Assembly (NCBI GenBank): GCA_018670435.1 | Contig: JABHRC010000008.1 | Span: 1-35,335, forward strand | Length of the DNA stretch: 35,335 nucleotides | Direction: 5' to 3' | Source of the DNA: Gammaproteobacteria bacterium | GTDB taxonomy: Bacteria; Pseudomonadota; Gammaproteobacteria; GCA-002705445; GCA-002716945 | Shown here: positions 5,230 to 33,935 of the stretch, one piece after another | Layout: each line of letters opens with the position of its first letter | How positions within the stretch are numbered: the first letter of the stretch is position 1 | Translations under genes and position numbers: made by a program | Notes under the pieces: generated by a model | What the model was told of the DNA's origin: nothing | The model's input: only the letters and a program-made list of their open reading frames with translations | Database searches by the model: none

Positions 5230-7794
5230 CTATAAAATTTTATTTATATAACTCAAAACAACTTTCATGTTCTGATTTAAAATTACAGAAGATCCAAAAG
5301 TTGGGCTTCCACCACCCTTAGAAGAGAACTCGTTGTTTAGTTCTTCTATTATTTTTTTTGCATTATATCGATGTTTACATTGCTTGGAAACACCTACATA
5401 GCAATTAATTACTTCTAAATTTTTCTTAAACAATACTGATATAGAGTTCTCGTGTTGATTTTTAATCAGATCTGACAATATTTTAATTTGATTAATCTCA
5501 ATATCCGAACAATCAGCAAGATAAAGTTTAGTCATTGAATCTTTAAGGTCCTTTGATTTTAAATTTTTTAAATATAATAATGCAAGTTTTTTACTAAGCT
5601 CATTAATTTTTATTTGACTCAAATCCTCGTTTGTCTTCACAGAAACTATCTTTTTCTCTAAATCGGATGGTTTAACATTAAGAAGCTTACCTATCTTTTT
5701 AACATCATCATGTAACATCTGAAATGAATGATATGCTTCTTCACCCGTTATAGCTTCAATACGTCTAATACCAGTTGATACGCTAGTCTCATTTAAAATC
5801 TTAAATAATCGTATCGAAGATGTCTTAGAAACATGAGTGCCTCCACATAACTCCATTGACTTTGTACCAATATTGACAACTCTAACATCATCAGAATATT
5901 TTTCATCAAAGAATGCAAGAGCTCCACTTTTTATTGCTTCCTTATACGAGCTAGTTTTCTCTATGGTGTCTCGGTCAGAATTTATCTCAAAAGAAACAGT
6001 AGTTTCAATCTTCCTAATCTGCTCTGCATCAAGTGCTTTATTATGAGAAAAATCAAAACGTAGATACTTGTCTGTGACCAAGGAACCTTTTTGCTCAACG
6101 TGATCACCCAGAACATCTCTTAGGGCTTGATTCAAAAGATGAGTTGATGAATGATTAATTGAAGTTTTATTTCTTCTTTCTTTATTAATTTTTAAAAAGA
6201 TATCATCTCCCATGGAAATGACACCAGTTTCTAAAACTGCCTGATGAACAATCACATTGTTAATTTTTTGTACGTTAGTAACTATTAAGCTAGATGTTTC
6301 ATTCCCAATTTTACCTATATCAGATATTTGCCCACCACCTTCAGGATAAAATGGGGTGTTTTCAGTTATAATTAAAACCTCTGAATTAGGTTTATCACAG
6401 TTTTTAATTTTTTTCTTATCATGGTATAGACCAATCACTTTAGATGTTAACTCATAATCTGTATACCCAAGGAAATTAGTTTGTAAACTTGAGTCGATAA
6501 AAGCAGTATCAGTGATATCAAATTTACTATGTTTTCTGCTTTGCTTTTTTTGAGACTCCATTAAATTATTGAATGTATCTAAATCAAGTTTGAGGTTTTT
6601 TTCTACCGCAATTTCCTGAATTATTTCTGATGGGAAACCATATGTGTCATATAATTTAAATATATTTTCCCCGCTTAATTCATTCCGACTCTTGGTCAAC
6701 TTATTAATAAGTTCTAAACCTTTACTGAGCGTATTTAAGTAATTACTCTCTTCAATCTTGAGGGTTTCTTTTATAGCTACAGACTTATCTATCAACCCAT
6801 TATATGTACTACCCATTGTTTTTTCTAAGATATCTGCGCATGAATAAATAAATGGTTCTTGTATTCCCGCATTATAAAGAAATCTAGTAGCTCGCCTTAT
6901 TATTCTTCGCAGAACATAACCTCTTCCCTCGTTACTAGGGATTACACCATCAGATATTAAGAAGCAAGAAGATCTACAGTGGTCCATAATTATCTTCTTA
7001 ATCGTATAATTAATATTTTTTGTATCCAAAGATTCATCAAGATATTTTTCCAAGTTCGAGAATAATGATGTTTTAAAATTATCAGTCTTTCCTTCAACAA
7101 CTGCATGAATTCTTTCAAGCCCCATACCTGTATCAACACATTTTTCTGGTAAATCATTTAGGCTACCATCACTATCACGATTGAACTGTGTGAAGACTAG
7201 ATTCCATATCTCAATATATCTCTCTCCAGTATCACCTTTTGATGGAATGTTGCCTTTCAACTCCTTTCCTAAATCATAGTAAATTTCCGAGCATGGACCA
7301 CACGGTCCAGTCGGACCCATCTGCCAAAAATTATCCACATCATCTAAATACCATAATTTATCAGCGTCTATTTTAATTTTATCAAGCCAAATTTTTGATG
7401 CTTCCTTGTCATCTTTATGAACAGAGATATAAAGCCTGTCTTTAGCTAAGCCAAGATCTTTAGTTAAAAAATCCCATGCAAAAACAATAGCCTCCTCTTT
7501 AAAATAATCACCAAAACTAAAATTTCCTAGCATTTCAAAAAAAGAATGGTGTCGATTAGTATAACCAATATTTTCGAGATCATTATGTTTCCCGCCAGCT
7601 CTAACACATTTCTGACATGTAACAACTCTAGTATATTTAGGTTTTTTTATTCCTAAAAATATATCTTTAAACTGGACCATTCCAGCATTTGTAAACAATA
7701 GTGTTTTGTCTGAGGCAGGAACCAAAGAGCTGGACTCAATCAGCTCGTGATTATTCTTTATAAAATAGTTAGTATATAATTCTCTAATGTTCAT
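5230..7794 (-). CDS. alaS: alanyl-tRNA synthetase
   Basis: Charges tRNA-Ala and edits mischarged seryl- and glycyl-tRNA-Ala. 854 residues, slightly shorter than E. coli AlaS (876). The class II aminoacylation core includes HHSFFEMLGNFSFGDYF (82-98) and GPTGPCGPCSEI (160-171). The editing domain has the zinc-type residues HSSTH (548-552) and CGGTH (650-654). The C-terminal C-Ala domain ends with the GGGSPTFG motif. The ATG at 7794 overlaps the recX stop by 4 bases (ATGA), indicating translational coupling. The gene is intact. Confidence 0.98.
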   Translation of the reverse strand: MNIRELYTNYFIKNNHELIESSSLVPASDKTLLFTNAGMVQFKDIFLGIKKPKYTRVVTCQKCVRAGGKHNDLENIGYTNRHHSFFEMLGNFSFGDYFKEEAIVFAWDFLTKDLGLAKDRLYISVHKDDKEASKIWLDKIKIDADKLWYLDDVDNFWQMGPTGPCGPCSEIYYDLGKELKGNIPSKGDTGERYIEIWNLVFTQFNRDSDGSLNDLPEKCVDTGMGLERIHAVVEGKTDNFKTSLFSNLEKYLDESLDTKNINYTIKKIIMDHCRSSCFLISDGVIPSNEGRGYVLRRIIRRATRFLYNAGIQEPFIYSCADILEKTMGSTYNGLIDKSVAIKETLKIEESNYLNTLSKGLELINKLTKSRNELSGENIFKLYDTYGFPSEIIQEIAVEKNLKLDLDTFNNLMESQKKQSRKHSKFDITDTAFIDSSLQTNFLGYTDYELTSKVIGLYHDKKKIKNCDKPNSEVLIITENTPFYPEGGGQISDIGKIGNETSSLIVTNVQKINNVIVHQAVLETGVISMGDDIFLKINKERRNKTSINHSSTHLLNQALRDVLGDHVEQKGSLVTDKYLRFDFSHNKALDAEQIRKIETTVSFEINSDRDTIEKTSSYKEAIKSGALAFFDEKYSDDVRVVNIGTKSMELCGGTHVSKTSSIRLFKILNETSVSTGIRRIEAITGEEAYHSFQMLHDDVKKIGKLLNVKPSDLEKKIVSVKTNEDLSQIKINELSKKLALLYLKNLKSKDLKDSMTKLYLADCSDIEINQIKILSDLIKNQHENSISVLFKKNLEVINCYVGVSKQCKHRYNAKKIIEELNNEFSSKGGGSPTFGSSVILNQNMKVVLSYINKIL

Positions 7795-11262: not shown

Positions 11263-11535
11263 TTACCTACTGGTGGCGATATTTTTTCTTCTGATCTTAG
11301 GATCTATTGTAATAGGGCTGTAAAGCTCTAATCGATCATTTTCTTTAATAATATAATCAGGTTTTTTTATTTTTCCAAATACTCCTATCTTATAATTATT
11401 GTAATTCATTTTCGGTATAACAACCGATAGGTTGTTTAATAAGACAAAATCATGGATGGTACAGCCCTCCTTGACCTTAAAAACTATGCTCTTGATTTTA
11501 TCTGAATCTGTATAATAAAAAAGTATATCAAACAT
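11263..11535 (-). CDS. rnfH: RnfH family protein (RatB)
   Basis: 90-residue beta-grasp (ubiquitin-like) protein of the UPF0125/RnfH family; the biochemical role is not established. Family features are a hydrophobic N-terminal strand, VKEGCTIHDFVLLN in the helix region, IGVFGKIKKPDYIIKENDRLELYSP toward the end (GxxGKxxxxxxxLxxGDRxExY pattern) and a C-terminal basic IDPKIRRKN. Its start abuts the ratA stop (11535/11536). The ratA-rnfH pairing is a standard gammaproteobacterial arrangement and supports the call. Confidence 0.88.
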   Translation of the reverse strand: MFDILFYYTDSDKIKSIVFKVKEGCTIHDFVLLNNLSVVIPKMNYNNYKIGVFGKIKKPDYIIKENDRLELYSPITIDPKIRRKNIATSR

Positions 11536-11973
11536 TTAAGCAAGACCTTTTCGTTTGAAAGCTTCAGAAATAAAAGAGTCTAGAATCGTTGACATTATGT
11601 TTGAAAATATGGGTTTGATTGATAATTCGATGAGTCTACTATCAAACTTATATTCAAGATAAAGGTCAACAGTTGTATTATAATTATCAATTTTTTTAAA
11701 TTCCCAGTAACCATCTAAATGATTAAATGGGCCATCAATTAACTTTATGGTTATTTTTTTGTTTAAATCATAAGTATTCTCTGTTGAAAATTTCCAGTTA
11801 ATAAAATTTTTAGATATTTCAATTTCAGCCTGCATCTTATCACCAGTATCTGAGATAATCTTAGAGTCAGAACACCAAGGTAAAAATCTGTGATAATCAC
11901 TAACATTATTTATTAATGAGAATATCAGTTCATGGCCAACATTAATTTCTTCAGATTTATTTATATAATCCAT
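11536..11973 (-). CDS. ratA: RatA-like START/polyketide-cyclase domain protein
   Basis: 145 residues from the chosen start. This is the SRPBCC-fold family of E. coli RatA (reported to hinder 70S assembly) and mitochondrial Coq10 (ubiquinone binding); which activity applies here is open. Conserved segments are SLINNVSDYHRFLPWCSDSKI, LIDGPFNHLDGYWEF and LYLEYKFDSRLIEL. I chose the ATG at 11973 rather than the in-frame ATG at 11997: it aligns with family N-termini and starts one base after the upstream transporter stop (TAAAATG), a coupling arrangement. In most gammaproteobacteria ratA is adjacent and divergent to smpB; here the symporter gene separates them. Confidence 0.88.
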   Translation of the reverse strand: MDYINKSEEINVGHELIFSLINNVSDYHRFLPWCSDSKIISDTGDKMQAEIEISKNFINWKFSTENTYDLNKKITIKLIDGPFNHLDGYWEFKKIDNYNTTVDLYLEYKFDSRLIELSIKPIFSNIMSTILDSFISEAFKRKGLA

Positions 11974-11974
11974 T

Positions 11975-13411
11975 TTACGATAACAATCCATGTGCAAATA
12001 TTAGTGTTACAGCGATTGGTGCAACATATCTTATCAAGAGTAACCAAAAATTAAATACTATCGAGCTGAATCTTAGTTCATCCATTACAATATTTTTCTT
12101 AACGATATAACCTACAAAAATCGCCATCATCAATCCGCCTAACGGCAGCATTACTTTCGAAGTAAGGGCATCTAATAAACTAAAAAAATTCATTCCAAAC
12201 AACTTATAATCTGCAATAAGATTAAATGAAAGTATTGTGCCTAATCCTACTAACCAGGTTAGCATACCCATTTTGATGCTGGCTTCTCCCCTACTGATAG
12301 AATAATTTTCAATCATAAAACTTATAGCAGGCTCAATAAGTGAAATAGACGAAGTAATAGCAGCAAAAAATAGTAAAATAAAAAATAGGGTAGCTATAAT
12401 ATCTCCCCCAGGCATTGCTCCAAAAGCAATTGGCAAAGTTTCGAAAATTAAACCTGGCCCAGCAGTTGAAGGGTCGAGGTTATAAGTAAAAACAATAGGA
12501 AATATAATTATACCTGCTAATATAGCAACAAATGTATCTGCAAATGCAACTAATGTAGTTACTTCTGCTATAGATGCATCATCTGACAAATAAGATCCAT
12601 ATATCATTAACGAACCCATCCCAATACTTAGTGAAAAAAATGCCATCCCTATTGCACTTAACACTACACCAGAAGTAATTTTTGATAAGTCTGGTACAAA
12701 CATATATTTGATCCCATCACTGAATCCATCCAATGTTGATGAGTAAACAGCTAAGCCAATTAATAATAGAAATAATCCTGGGATTAGAAATTTAACTGCC
12801 TTTTCAAGTCCACCTTTAACTCCTTGAGAAACTATATAGCAAGTTATAAACATAAATATCGTATGCCAAGCTAATAATTTTTCTGGATCAGAAACTAAAT
12901 TAGTAAATATTTGTTTAGACCCATCAAGATCAATTAAATTAAAGGCTCCTGAACCAGCCTTCAAAATATAGGACATAGTCCAACCTGCTATAACACTATA
13001 AAATGAAAGTATTAGTATCCCCGCAATAATCCCAGCCCAGCCAACTAGCTGCCAATTAGTATAGTCATCAGAATTAGAATACTTTTGTTTTTTAGTTTTA
13101 ACTCGTTTCAGATCTGCATCAATTTCAGTGACATCGAAGCAGCTCGATTCATTTGACAGATATCTTAGACTAGCCACTGGATTCTGCTTTCCATGTCTTC
13201 CAATAAAAACCTCTGCCAACATTATTGGCAAAGCAATCAAAATGACACTTAATATGTAAAGTAAAACAAAAGCGCCACCCCCACTCTCACTTACCATCCA
13301 TGGAAATTTCCATATATTACCCAATCCTACAGCAGAACCAGTAGCTGCAAAAATGAAGATTATTTTTGAAGACCACTGCCCATGTATTGATTGTCGTTGA
13401 TTAGCTATAAT
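11975..13411 (-). CDS. sodium:neurotransmitter-type (SLC6/NSS, LeuT-fold) amino-acid symporter, probable ATT start
   Basis: Inner-membrane Na+-coupled uptake carrier, likely for amino acids or similar solutes. The first transmembrane segment carries the NSS signature: ATGSAVGLGNIWKFPW (23-38), with the Gly-Asn pair that lines the Na1/substrate site. About eleven or twelve hydrophobic segments follow to residue 478, the usual size of bacterial NSS proteins. No ATG, GTG or TTG allows the complete first helix: a TTG at 13322-13324 would start inside the signature. Reading upstream, the frame stays open to TAA at 13415-13417. An ATT at 13409-13411 lies 6 bases after AAGGAG (13418-13423), so ATT initiation is the best model. 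The substrate is unknown. The gene is inserted between ratA and smpB. Confidence 0.85.
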   Translation of the reverse strand: MIANQRQSIHGQWSSKIIFIFAATGSAVGLGNIWKFPWMVSESGGGAFVLLYILSVILIALPIMLAEVFIGRHGKQNPVASLRYLSNESSCFDVTEIDADLKRVKTKKQKYSNSDDYTNWQLVGWAGIIAGILILSFYSVIAGWTMSYILKAGSGAFNLIDLDGSKQIFTNLVSDPEKLLAWHTIFMFITCYIVSQGVKGGLEKAVKFLIPGLFLLLIGLAVYSSTLDGFSDGIKYMFVPDLSKITSGVVLSAIGMAFFSLSIGMGSLMIYGSYLSDDASIAEVTTLVAFADTFVAILAGIIIFPIVFTYNLDPSTAGPGLIFETLPIAFGAMPGGDIIATLFFILLFFAAITSSISLIEPAISFMIENYSISRGEASIKMGMLTWLVGLGTILSFNLIADYKLFGMNFFSLLDALTSKVMLPLGGLMMAIFVGYIVKKNIVMDELRFSSIVFNFWLLLIRYVAPIAVTLIFAHGLLS

Positions 13412-31017: not shown

Positions 31018-32040
31018 ATGGTTAAAGAAAAATTTATAATAGATAGTGATACAAACTGCTTAATATTAGCTTGGCCGAGCATATATCGTAAAAAAATATT
31101 TTGGCGCGATTTAATAAAAATATATTATAAGCTAATCAGTATAATAATATCAAATGGGTACCATATAATCTTAATACATCATGAAAATGTAAATATTGAA
31201 AATGAGATAGAATTCATTGGTAAGAAGTTTTCCGATATTAACAGTAATTATAAATCAAATATTTCTTTTCATGAATATGATTTTGATGATATATGGATAC
31301 GTGATTATGGTCCTAAATTGACAAAGTCAGGTATAGCTAGATTGATTTTTAATGGGTATGGTGAAAAATATTTTCATAAAAATGATAGTCTTTTTTTTAA
31401 CTACCTCATGCAGAAATATCCAAGAAACAATAATGATATGTTTAACAACATAGTAATTGAAGGTGGTAATATTATTAACTCATCAAAAGACTGCATATTG
31501 AATATAAACCCCATCATTATGCATAATCAATTATCTTCAAATTCTATAAAGAATAAAACCAAGGAATTATTTGAACAATACATGGATGGAGACTATCATT
31601 TAATAGATATACAAGAATTGACTGGTGATGATACAGATGGGCATATCGATAACATTGTTCGATTTAAAAATGATACTACATTGTTATATATGTCTACCAA
31701 TGAAAAGGATCATCCTGACTATGAGCTTTTGAAGAATTTAGAAAAGCAATTAGGTAAACTAATTAAAAACTCTAATAATATAAATGATATGATTCCTATT
31801 GATCATAATTATCAAGACGTAGTTAGGAATAGAAATGGTTCTATATTGCCTTTCTCATATCTCAACTTTATAATGATCGGGGATTTAATTATCTTTCCAG
31901 TTAACTTAAATACGGATATTCAGAAGAAAAAATATTTAGAAGAGTTGTTCCCTGACAAGAATATATATTTTATAGAATCTTCTGCTTTACTCAATGAATT
32001 TGGAAGCCTACATTGCTGTAGCAATAATTTTGTTATATGA
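31018..32040 (+). CDS. aguA: agmatine deiminase
   Basis: Converts agmatine to N-carbamoylputrescine and ammonia in the arginine route to putrescine. 340 residues of the guanidine-modifying (pentein) fold. The catalytic set is visible: D96 in WIRDYGP, E148 in IEGGNI, H209/D211 in DTDGHIDN and the nucleophile C333 in SLHCCSNN. LAWPS near 18-22 is the family opening. The stop overlaps the next gene by 4 bases (ATGA); that gene encodes the following pathway step. Peptidylarginine deiminases share the motifs, but the size and neighbour favour agmatine. It is divergent from the Lol genes. Confidence 0.93.
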   Translation: MVKEKFIIDSDTNCLILAWPSIYRKKIFWRDLIKIYYKLISIIISNGYHIILIHHENVNIENEIEFIGKKFSDINSNYKSNISFHEYDFDDIWIRDYGPKLTKSGIARLIFNGYGEKYFHKNDSLFFNYLMQKYPRNNNDMFNNIVIEGGNIINSSKDCILNINPIIMHNQLSSNSIKNKTKELFEQYMDGDYHLIDIQELTGDDTDGHIDNIVRFKNDTTLLYMSTNEKDHPDYELLKNLEKQLGKLIKNSNNINDMIPIDHNYQDVVRNRNGSILPFSYLNFIMIGDLIIFPVNLNTDIQKKKYLEELFPDKNIYFIESSALLNEFGSLHCCSNNFVI

Positions 32041-32888
32041 ATAAATTAAATAATAATAAAAAAATAGATGTGGTAATTTTACAACAAGCTATTAGTGATA
32101 GTACTGATAAAAATTTAGAAAGTTTTATTAAAAGTATTAATAATGTTAAGGCATCTAGTAATATAACTATAGTTGTTGGGCATGAGCTTTCATATTTAAA
32201 ATATTTTCCAATAACTAAAAATATAATTAATAAAAAATATGCTATTCAAAAATCGTCAAAAATATTCAAAGATATAAAAAATATATGTATTAAAAAAAAC
32301 ATCTTCTTCCTTTTCTCATTTTTTGAAAAAAGTAAAGAGAGACTATATAACTCAGTATCTCTGATATCCCCAAATGGCAAAGAAGTTGGTAAGTATAGAA
32401 AAAGAAATATACCTAATGAAGAATGTTATCAAGAAAAATATTATTTCAATAAATCTAATAATAAGCATGTAGTTATTGACATTGGGATATGCAAAATTGG
32501 ACTAATGATCTGCTGGGATCAATGGCATCATGAAACATATCAGCAATTAAATAAATTAGGGGCAGATTTAATTCTATGTCCCACATCAATTGGCTATGCT
32601 TATAAAAAAAGTAAATGCATTAGCTTGGCTAATGAAAAAGAAAAGTGGTTAAACATAATCACAGCAAATAGCTTGATGATAAATACTCCTATTGTTATAG
32701 CAAATCGAACTGGATGTGAATGCAGTAAGGACAACATGATCAAATTCTGGGGCTCCAGTTTTGTTACAAATTCTAATGGTGATATAGATTTCATAAATAA
32801 AAACAACAAATTAATGAGCTATATCACTATTGACCTATCCAAGAAGAGTCTCTCTAAAAAAATATGGGGATTCTGCCAAAAGAACTAG
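32037..32888 (+). CDS. aguB: N-carbamoylputrescine amidase (nitrilase superfamily)
   Basis: Hydrolyses N-carbamoylputrescine to putrescine, CO2 and ammonia. 283 residues. The Glu-Lys-Cys triad is seen as E50 (VVGHELSYLKYF), K122 (GKYRKRNIP) and C159 (IGLMICWDQWHHE). YRKRNIP and CYQEKYYF match the carbamoylputrescine-specific form of the superfamily, and ADLILCPTSIG follows. Translationally coupled to aguA. The N-terminal 40 residues are unusually Asn/Lys-rich, in line with the AT-rich genome. Confidence 0.93.
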   Translation: MNKLNNNKKIDVVILQQAISDSTDKNLESFIKSINNVKASSNITIVVGHELSYLKYFPITKNIINKKYAIQKSSKIFKDIKNICIKKNIFFLFSFFEKSKERLYNSVSLISPNGKEVGKYRKRNIPNEECYQEKYYFNKSNNKHVVIDIGICKIGLMICWDQWHHETYQQLNKLGADLILCPTSIGYAYKKSKCISLANEKEKWLNIITANSLMINTPIVIANRTGCECSKDNMIKFWGSSFVTNSNGDIDFINKNNKLMSYITIDLSKKSLSKKIWGFCQKN

Positions 32889-33033
32889 GTTTTAATCAGT
32901 AAATATCTATAAAAGTTGATGCTTGATAGGATGGATTTAATGATAAATAGGTTCATTTAAACATCTATATACTGTAGAATTGTTATTAAAGATGGCTCTG
33001 TGTGGTTATCTATGACTCAAATAGAGGTAATAC

Positions 33034-33192
33034 GTGAGAATAGTAACAATTTTTTTAATGGGTTTATTCACCATAGGCACGACCTACTTAGATAGTTCTA
33101 AATTGCAACAAAGCAATAAATTGTCTAGCTTAGATCAGATTATTTATGAAGAAGAAAAACCAAGCGAAGAAGGAGAGCCAGATTGTGAATAA
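33034..33192 (+). CDS. unrecognised 52-aa peptide with hydrophobic N-terminus and acidic tail
   Basis: A GTG start at 33034 follows AGAGG with a 6-base spacer. The 52-residue product opens MRIVTIFLMGLFTIGTTYL, a single hydrophobic stretch that could be a signal peptide or membrane anchor. A Ser/Gln/Asn-rich middle follows, then a strongly acidic, Pro-containing end (YEEEKPSEEGEPDCE) with one Cys at 51. I see no lipobox. An ATG at codon 9 is an alternative start without a ribosome binding site. It ends 21 bases before the secreted rhodanese gene on the same strand, so co-transcription is likely. Function unknown; that it is a real gene is inferred from RBS, spacing and composition. Confidence 0.55.
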   Translation: MRIVTIFLMGLFTIGTTYLDSSKLQQSNKLSSLDQIIYEEEKPSEEGEPDCE

Positions 33193-33213
33193 TAAAAGTA
33201 AAAGGGAGAAGAT

Positions 33214-33885
33214 ATGAAAATCAATTCAATTTTAAGTGTTGTTTTAGTTTCCGTGTTTACATTCTCTACTGCCTATGCTGATAAACCAGTGGCAATTTCT
33301 AAAGCTGATGGACCAAATTCATTAGAGATAGGAGTTTCAGTAGGTAGCGGTGATGTTAAATTTATGAGAAATCAAAATAACAAAAATACTGTGAACCCAG
33401 CGTTTGCTAAAACATCAAGACCTTGTCCACCATTTTGCGTTCAACCAATGCAATTAAGACCGGGTATTGAGACTATTGGTGAACAAGAGATAATTCATTA
33501 TGCAGTTATGATGAGTAAAGGACAAAAAATGCCTGACGGCTCTGAGATAATGGTAATTGACTCTAGAACACCTGATTGGGTTGCAAAAGGTATGATACCT
33601 GGAGCAGTCAATATACCTTGGACTCACTTAAGTGAAGCTAAAGGTGCTGATCCAATTTCAATTGCAGAGATAATGACTGATAAATTTGGTGCAAAAGAAC
33701 AAAACGGTTTGTTCTATTTCGATGATGCCAAAACATTAGTTATGTATTGCAATGGAATGTGGTGTGGTCAATCACCTAACAATATTAAAAGTTTGCTAAA
33801 ATATGGTTATCCTGCTGATAAAATCAAATGGTACCGTGGTGGTATGCAAAACTGGGAAATACTTGGTTTTAATACTGTAAAATAA
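33214..33885 (+). CDS. secreted rhodanese-domain protein with CPPFC motif
   Basis: Predicted periplasmic sulfurtransferase-like protein, 223 residues. Signal peptide 1-22 with Ala-x-Ala cleavage at STAYA/DKP. A linker region has RPCPPFCVQPMQLRPGIETI (69-88), where C71 and C75 may bind metal or form a disulfide. The rhodanese domain (about 88-222) includes VIDSRTPDWVAKGMIPGAVN, the active-site loop MYCNGMWCGQSPNNI and the closing WYRGGMQNWEILGF. The loop has two cysteines (C179, C184); C184 of WCGQS or C179 would carry the sulfane. GGGAG-like SD (AAGGGAG, 7 bases before ATG) supports the start. The partner is unknown. A strong terminator follows. Confidence 0.88.
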   Translation: MKINSILSVVLVSVFTFSTAYADKPVAISKADGPNSLEIGVSVGSGDVKFMRNQNNKNTVNPAFAKTSRPCPPFCVQPMQLRPGIETIGEQEIIHYAVMMSKGQKMPDGSEIMVIDSRTPDWVAKGMIPGAVNIPWTHLSEAKGADPISIAEIMTDKFGAKEQNGLFYFDDAKTLVMYCNGMWCGQSPNNIKSLLKYGYPADKIKWYRGGMQNWEILGFNTVK

Positions 33886-33903
33886 AATAGACTTACTAGA
33901 ATG

Positions 33904-33935
33904 AAAAGCAGTGCATATTTGTACTGCTTTTTTTT
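33904..33935 (+). terminator. intrinsic terminator after the rhodanese gene
   Basis: AAAGCAGTGCA (33905-33915) and TGTACTGCTTT (33920-33930) form an 11-bp stem with one G-T pair and a TATT loop. It is followed by an uninterrupted T-run to 33935, with a matching A-run at the 5' side. This is the clearest rho-independent terminator in the window. It ends 3 bases before the mfd start codon. Confidence 0.9.

Follow-up and report, generated by a model that had tools for sequence, protein, structure and literature searches.

Is the 52-codon reading frame that closely precedes a secreted rhodanese gene in this DNA a true gene, and what might its product do together with the rhodanese? We addressed this question in the window, by which we mean the whole stretch of 35,335 nucleotides analysed (G+C 31.5%), which comes from a draft genome of 972 kb in 41 contigs that is 84% complete. 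A preliminary description of this DNA had reported a GTG start with a good ribosome binding site, a peptide 21 bases before a secreted rhodanese, and a hydrophobic N-terminal segment followed by an acidic tail with a single cysteine. All of these were confirmed (Table 1), including the 21 nt from the stop codon of the peptide gene to the ATG of the rhodanese at 33214. The window peptide has the sequence MRIVTIFLMGLFTIGTTYLDSSKLQQSNKLSSLDQIIYEEEKPSEEGEPDCE.

Table 1. Coordinates of the peptide-rhodanese locus in the window
Feature	Position	Strand	Details
Ribosome binding site of the peptide gene, AGAGGT	33023..33028	+	5 nt before the GTG start; read directly
Peptide gene, 52 codons	33034..33192	+	GTG start at 33034, TAA at 33190-33192; kept in the family
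Peptide codons 1-19	33034..33090	+	N-terminal charge and hydrophobic segment; candidate signal peptide or uncleaved anchor
Acidic tail of the peptide, EEGEPDCE	33166..33189	+	Cys51 codon at 33184-33186, penultimate residue
Secreted rhodanese, 223 aa	33214..33885	+	PF00581, E 2.4e-13
Intrinsic terminator-like hairpin	33903..33932	+	13 bp and T-run, 3' of the pair; -16.7 kcal/mol

The length of the frame is weak evidence for a gene, because shuffling the intergenic stretch 2000 times yields an ORF of at least 52 aa in 57 cases. Conservation is the stronger argument. We searched 25 genomes of the window's family, 21 of which carry the rhodanese (the four without it are 69-78% complete), and in 21/21 a peptide ORF ending in P-[D/E]-C-[D/E]-stop lies upstream of it, the pair being split across two contig ends in G004 and the rhodanese match consisting of two adjacent pieces in different frames in G005. 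Where the distance between the two genes could be determined, it is 18-28 nt. The family peptides are about 47-61 residues long and combine a hydrophobic N-terminus and a variable middle with an unvarying end, and E48, P49 and C51 are invariant in an alignment of 13 sequences. Among the four closest genomes, dN/dS of the peptide is about 0.24-0.52 in five pairs and 0.86 in the closest pair (G004/G006), in which just 8 codons changed. Identity within the family is 82-96% for the rhodanese, where complete, and 42-68% for the neighbouring carbon-nitrogen hydrolase (PF00795). Judged by its sequence, the frame at 33034-33192 is a true gene, because it is conserved in all rhodanese-bearing family genomes. 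A chance ORF, a frame artefact and a leader peptide were considered as readings of the ORF and were rejected because of this conservation.

The peptides are a genuine small-protein family for which the libraries searched contain no model. The window peptide matched nothing in Pfam and NCBIfam at E<=1, PHROGs likewise returned nothing, and three relatives matched no NCBIfam family. A literature search by title and abstract start, with subscription journals outside its coverage, found nothing on such a peptide. The window peptide has no AxA signal-peptidase site, and clear SYA/SFA-type sites occur in several relatives. Its predicted structure is a single helix (residues 3-39) and a coiled tail, with a mean pLDDT of 66; this model would suit an anchor with a flexible arm, and proves neither.

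The rhodanese of the window carries a CPPFC segment at codons 71-75 and an active loop, C179-N-G-M-W-C184. C71 and C75 are kept in 106/106 aligned relatives, and C179 and C184 in 105/106. An AlphaFold2 model built from 52 aligned sequences (mean pLDDT 79.7) is confident over about residues 81-220, with the CPPFC segment in a part of lower confidence; in the PDB its matches are generic rhodanese folds, and a search there by sequence likewise gave generic rhodaneses only. No relative of the rhodanese was found on viral contigs. Rhodaneses occur in 10 plasmid records, all below 60% identity, and the one plasmid rhodanese region that we opened has no peptide annotated. The preliminary description had the pair closed by a strong terminator; the hairpin and T-run are there, but the hairpin by itself is statistically unremarkable, because the scan found one site and shuffles average 0.5.

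How far does the pairing extend beyond the family? In a class-wide sample of 274 genomes, 61 have the rhodanese at E <= 1e-20, and we scanned 52 rhodanese loci, which come from 49 of the 61 (3/52 have under 200 nt of DNA upstream), for an upstream ORF with a cysteine among the final three residues and four or more acidic residues in the last nine. Such an ORF precedes the rhodanese at 17/52 loci, from 16 genomes. Control anchors passed the same scan in 3/394 cases, two being tandem rhodanese copies in Marinobacterium-type loci; with these set aside, one of 392 unrelated control genes passed. The frame, Cys51 and the adjacency to the rhodanese, whose conservation the preliminary description had proposed to check, are thus kept throughout the rhodanese-bearing family genomes and at a third of the class loci. 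The remaining 35/52 loci (three with less than 200 nt upstream) lack such an ORF, and the rhodanese can therefore function without the peptide. A frame broken in relatives that keep the rhodanese had been named as the contrary observation; we found none in the family, whereas outside it many rhodaneses have no recognisable peptide. On named genome contigs, reading of 60 rhodanese loci gave 26 with such an ORF, 12 of them again from the window's family. Loci with the peptide ORF include Thiohalobacter thiocyanaticus, Thioalkalivibrio sp. HK1, Marinobacterium sp. xm-d-530 and a Gallionellaceae MAG.

A search for the exact DNA pattern of the tail matched 13/274 class genomes (reversed control 0), of which 11 have the rhodanese (Fisher p 1.7e-6). 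In a phylum sample the pattern occurred in 3/398 genomes (reversed control 2), with no small secreted ORF among them; these phylum-wide matches are background only. On reading, two of the 13 class matches are spurious. The pattern matches in G172 and G029 were judged to be chance, as were the matches in G643 and G316. A motif ORF at L100 (ending SSDPNCICR) was dropped as spurious.

The tail also varies. Endings other than EPDCE are EEDCD, EDDCD, EPNCE and a C-terminal Cys alone. The tail is weakly acidic in L121, L123, G118 and G155, and the homologue in G148 is lipoprotein-like with a C-terminal Cys. At eight Litoricola/HIMB30-type loci (L110, L112-L115, L118-L120) the upstream ORF, read by eye, has CADGKPC and ends in CSDEGESL or similar, so that its last cysteine lies several residues before the end, without a terminal-cysteine motif. 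This small secreted ORF looks related and has CADGKPCPTDAELEDSCSDEGESL in place of the EPDCE tail. Marinobacterium (CDDGSLCVPEGEPEPECD) appears intermediate. In a further group, which includes L100, L102, L104 and L116, the peptide is absent and another upstream ORF of about 100 aa is present, which is conserved and secreted and carries MDxVL..FGEP...GEPPI.

The surroundings of the pair belong to sulfur oxidation. Depending on the locus, it has sox genes nearby, is accompanied by a secreted DsrE-like protein, or follows an SQR-like gene. By eye, the order at L151 (G237) is SoxB-like and TusA genes followed by peptide, rhodanese, SoxZ and SoxA, and at L159 (G287) SoxB-like and SoxZ-like genes lie a few genes upstream of the pair. 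L088 has peptide, rhodanese and a DsrE-like gene (PF02635) in this order, with similar downstream genes, by eye, in L103 and L155. L109, L121 and L157 contain an SQR-like flavoprotein, which scores about 106-113 bits with the type III SQR model, below the cut-off of 525; at L121 and L123 an SQR-like gene comes first, followed by peptide and rhodanese. In G161 a second peptide copy (L149, about 11510-12157) precedes another, secreted DsrE-like protein and lies about 6 kb away from the one that accompanies the rhodanese. Standalone peptide genes were seen at L150 (about 6150-6301, G237:C9) and L142 (1-117, G117:C371), where the adjoining genes are not sulfur genes; both adjoin the same neighbour gene, and their two genomes belong to a single genus. 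The description of the peptide as paired with a rhodanese thus holds in the family and is slightly too narrow, with one copy beside a DsrE-like protein and two standing alone. In the window, an agmatine-deiminase-like (PF04371) and the carbon-nitrogen hydrolase gene precede the pair (31018-33885 in all), and similar genes do so in L088 and L155, which are distant; this synteny is old and has no obvious functional reason.

Sigma-54-type sites (20-22/23) lie 5' of the peptide in L107, L109, L149, L154 and L157, and all five loci have a sigma-54 activator with C-x10-C-x6-C that resembles FisR. Eight loci with such activators near the rhodanese were examined, and GAFTGA is kept in six. At L121 and L123 a 23/23 site stands before the SQR-like gene. 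We take the C-x10-C-x6-C regulators at these loci to resemble FisR in their cysteines. The part of PMC7315123 available to us reports that FisR activates an SQR operon in Acinetobacter. At the other peptide loci tested, the window included, no sigma-54-type site was found at shuffle p < 0.05, and sigma-54 control of the window copy was rejected for want of a site.

SoxZ is present in 60/61 rhodanese genomes and in 92/213 without the rhodanese (p 2e-17, uncorrected for shared ancestry). Within the family, SoxZ was found in 22/25 genomes, SoxB in 19/25 and a DsrE-family pair in 18/25, and the window's own genome has SoxY, SoxZ, SoxA and TusA together. SoxC scored above the cut-off in 0/25 family genomes, and SoxY-bound sulfur therefore needs a transferase route; from established knowledge of Sox, we infer that the family has a truncated pathway that requires the removal of sulfur from SoxY. 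In the class sample, the comparison for absence of SoxC (1/17 peptide genomes vs 12/44 other rhodanese genomes) is not significant (p 0.088), the 44 including all 12 of the 61 rhodanese genomes unexamined for an upstream ORF and the 17 including G072, counted through two contig ends, so that an anti-association of peptide and SoxC is only suggestive.

What, then, might the peptide do? A partnership of the peptide family with sulfur transfer is very likely. On the sequence evidence we consider it an even call that the peptide is a tethered or periplasmic sulfane-sulfur carrier paired with the SoxL-like rhodanese. It would be co-expressed with this periplasmic enzyme in sulfur-oxidizing bacteria, its N-terminus serving as an export signal or anchor and its acidic middle and tail as a flexible arm. 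The penultimate cysteine could be persulfidated by the rhodanese, or give a persulfide to it, and sulfur would move between the rhodanese and sulfide- or thiosulfate-oxidizing proteins outside the inner membrane, for which SoxYZ, SQR-type flavoproteins and periplasmic DsrE-like proteins are candidate partners. We infer export, co-transcription in the window, persulfidation, the direction of transfer and physical contact, and we put the odds on the carrier mechanism at about even. The membrane-tethered partner or thiol carrier of the preliminary description fits the sulfur-oxidation contexts, with the role itself still a proposal; its idea is largely supported.

The peptide can be compared with two known sulfur carriers. 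SoxY is an extracytoplasmic carrier with its cysteine on a swinging arm. The peptide would resemble it in having a cysteine near the C-terminus on an arm, but has no SoxY fold, no match to a SoxY domain (Pfam, NCBIfam), and a tail of GEPDCE rather than the GGCGG tail named for SoxY by NCBIfam TIGR04488; a true SoxY is present elsewhere in the window's genome. A precedent is DsrC, which according to PMC3397948 receives sulfur from DsrEFH and bears it on the penultimate cysteine. The peptide shares with DsrC/TusE, as described there, a strictly conserved penultimate cysteine, a flexible C-terminus and DsrE-type partners, whereas DsrC is folded and cytoplasmic and the peptide is hydrophobic at its N-terminus, with an acidic body that looks disordered; the DsrC family model gave no match to the peptide (Pfam, NCBIfam, E<=1). 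By analogy, the peptide may work like a DsrC- or SoxY-type carrier arm while belonging to neither family. A third likeness, to SoxK/SAXB-SoxL of Allochromatium vinosum, is a small protein together with a rhodanese in sox clusters; the accessible part of the Allochromatium genome paper (PMC3368242) proposes that SoxL "probably" takes sulfane sulfur off SoxY. SAXB, however, is another, larger small protein. At L187 (G026), which has soxY, soxZ, soxA, a SAXB-like gene, rhodanese and soxB, the rhodanese relative lies between the SAXB-like gene (70.5 bits with the SAXB model, below the cut-off of 95) and soxB, and the peptide is missing. Such a sox cluster/SAXB neighbourhood is not found at the window, and sox genes stand near the relative in L151.

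Among the alternatives, the one that survives best, though we think it unlikely, makes the peptide an accessory subunit that binds the rhodanese through its acidic tail and either anchors the enzyme at the membrane or, by way of a mixed disulfide, maintains the active-site or CPPFC cysteines in the reduced state. The adjacency of the genes, the fixed tail, the four nearly invariant cysteines of the rhodanese and the lipoprotein-like homologue of G148 with its C-terminal Cys would all suit such a subunit, but some copies of the peptide lie elsewhere than at the rhodanese, one of them beside a DsrE-like protein, and many rhodaneses have no peptide. Rather improbable is a precursor from which cleavage or modification releases a small acidic Cys product that binds thiols, metal or sulfur extracellularly (RiPP-like or related to sulfur globules): the signal-like N-terminus, the low-complexity middle and the confinement of conservation to the last residues are as expected of it, yet neighbourhood lists read by eye revealed no recurrent modifying enzyme, protease or exporter beside the peptide. 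A translated leader that couples or attenuates rhodanese translation, its sequence being immaterial, is scarcely credible: just 21 nt separate it from the rhodanese, but its C-terminal residues are invariant though its length varies, and copies occur without a downstream rhodanese.

Returning to the sulfane-sulfur carrier, the finding bears on how sulfur leaves SoxY without SoxCD and reaches storage or import outside the inner membrane. The accessible text of PMC3397948 proposes low-molecular-weight persulfides as sulfur carriers into the cytoplasm. We tentatively raise the possibility that the peptide, of about 50 residues and nearly structureless, is the carrier still missing from the branched (SoxCD-less) Sox and SQR pathways, in which the rhodanese would move sulfane sulfur derived from SoxY or SQR to the terminal cysteine and the peptide would deliver it to storage or to import for reverse Dsr. 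For such a carrier, a conserved peptide that has a single terminal cysteine and is encoded together with a rhodanese of this kind offers a concrete candidate that can be tested cheaply. If this is true, it would be an unusually small protein sulfur carrier, in which an anchor and a linker bear a single thiol.
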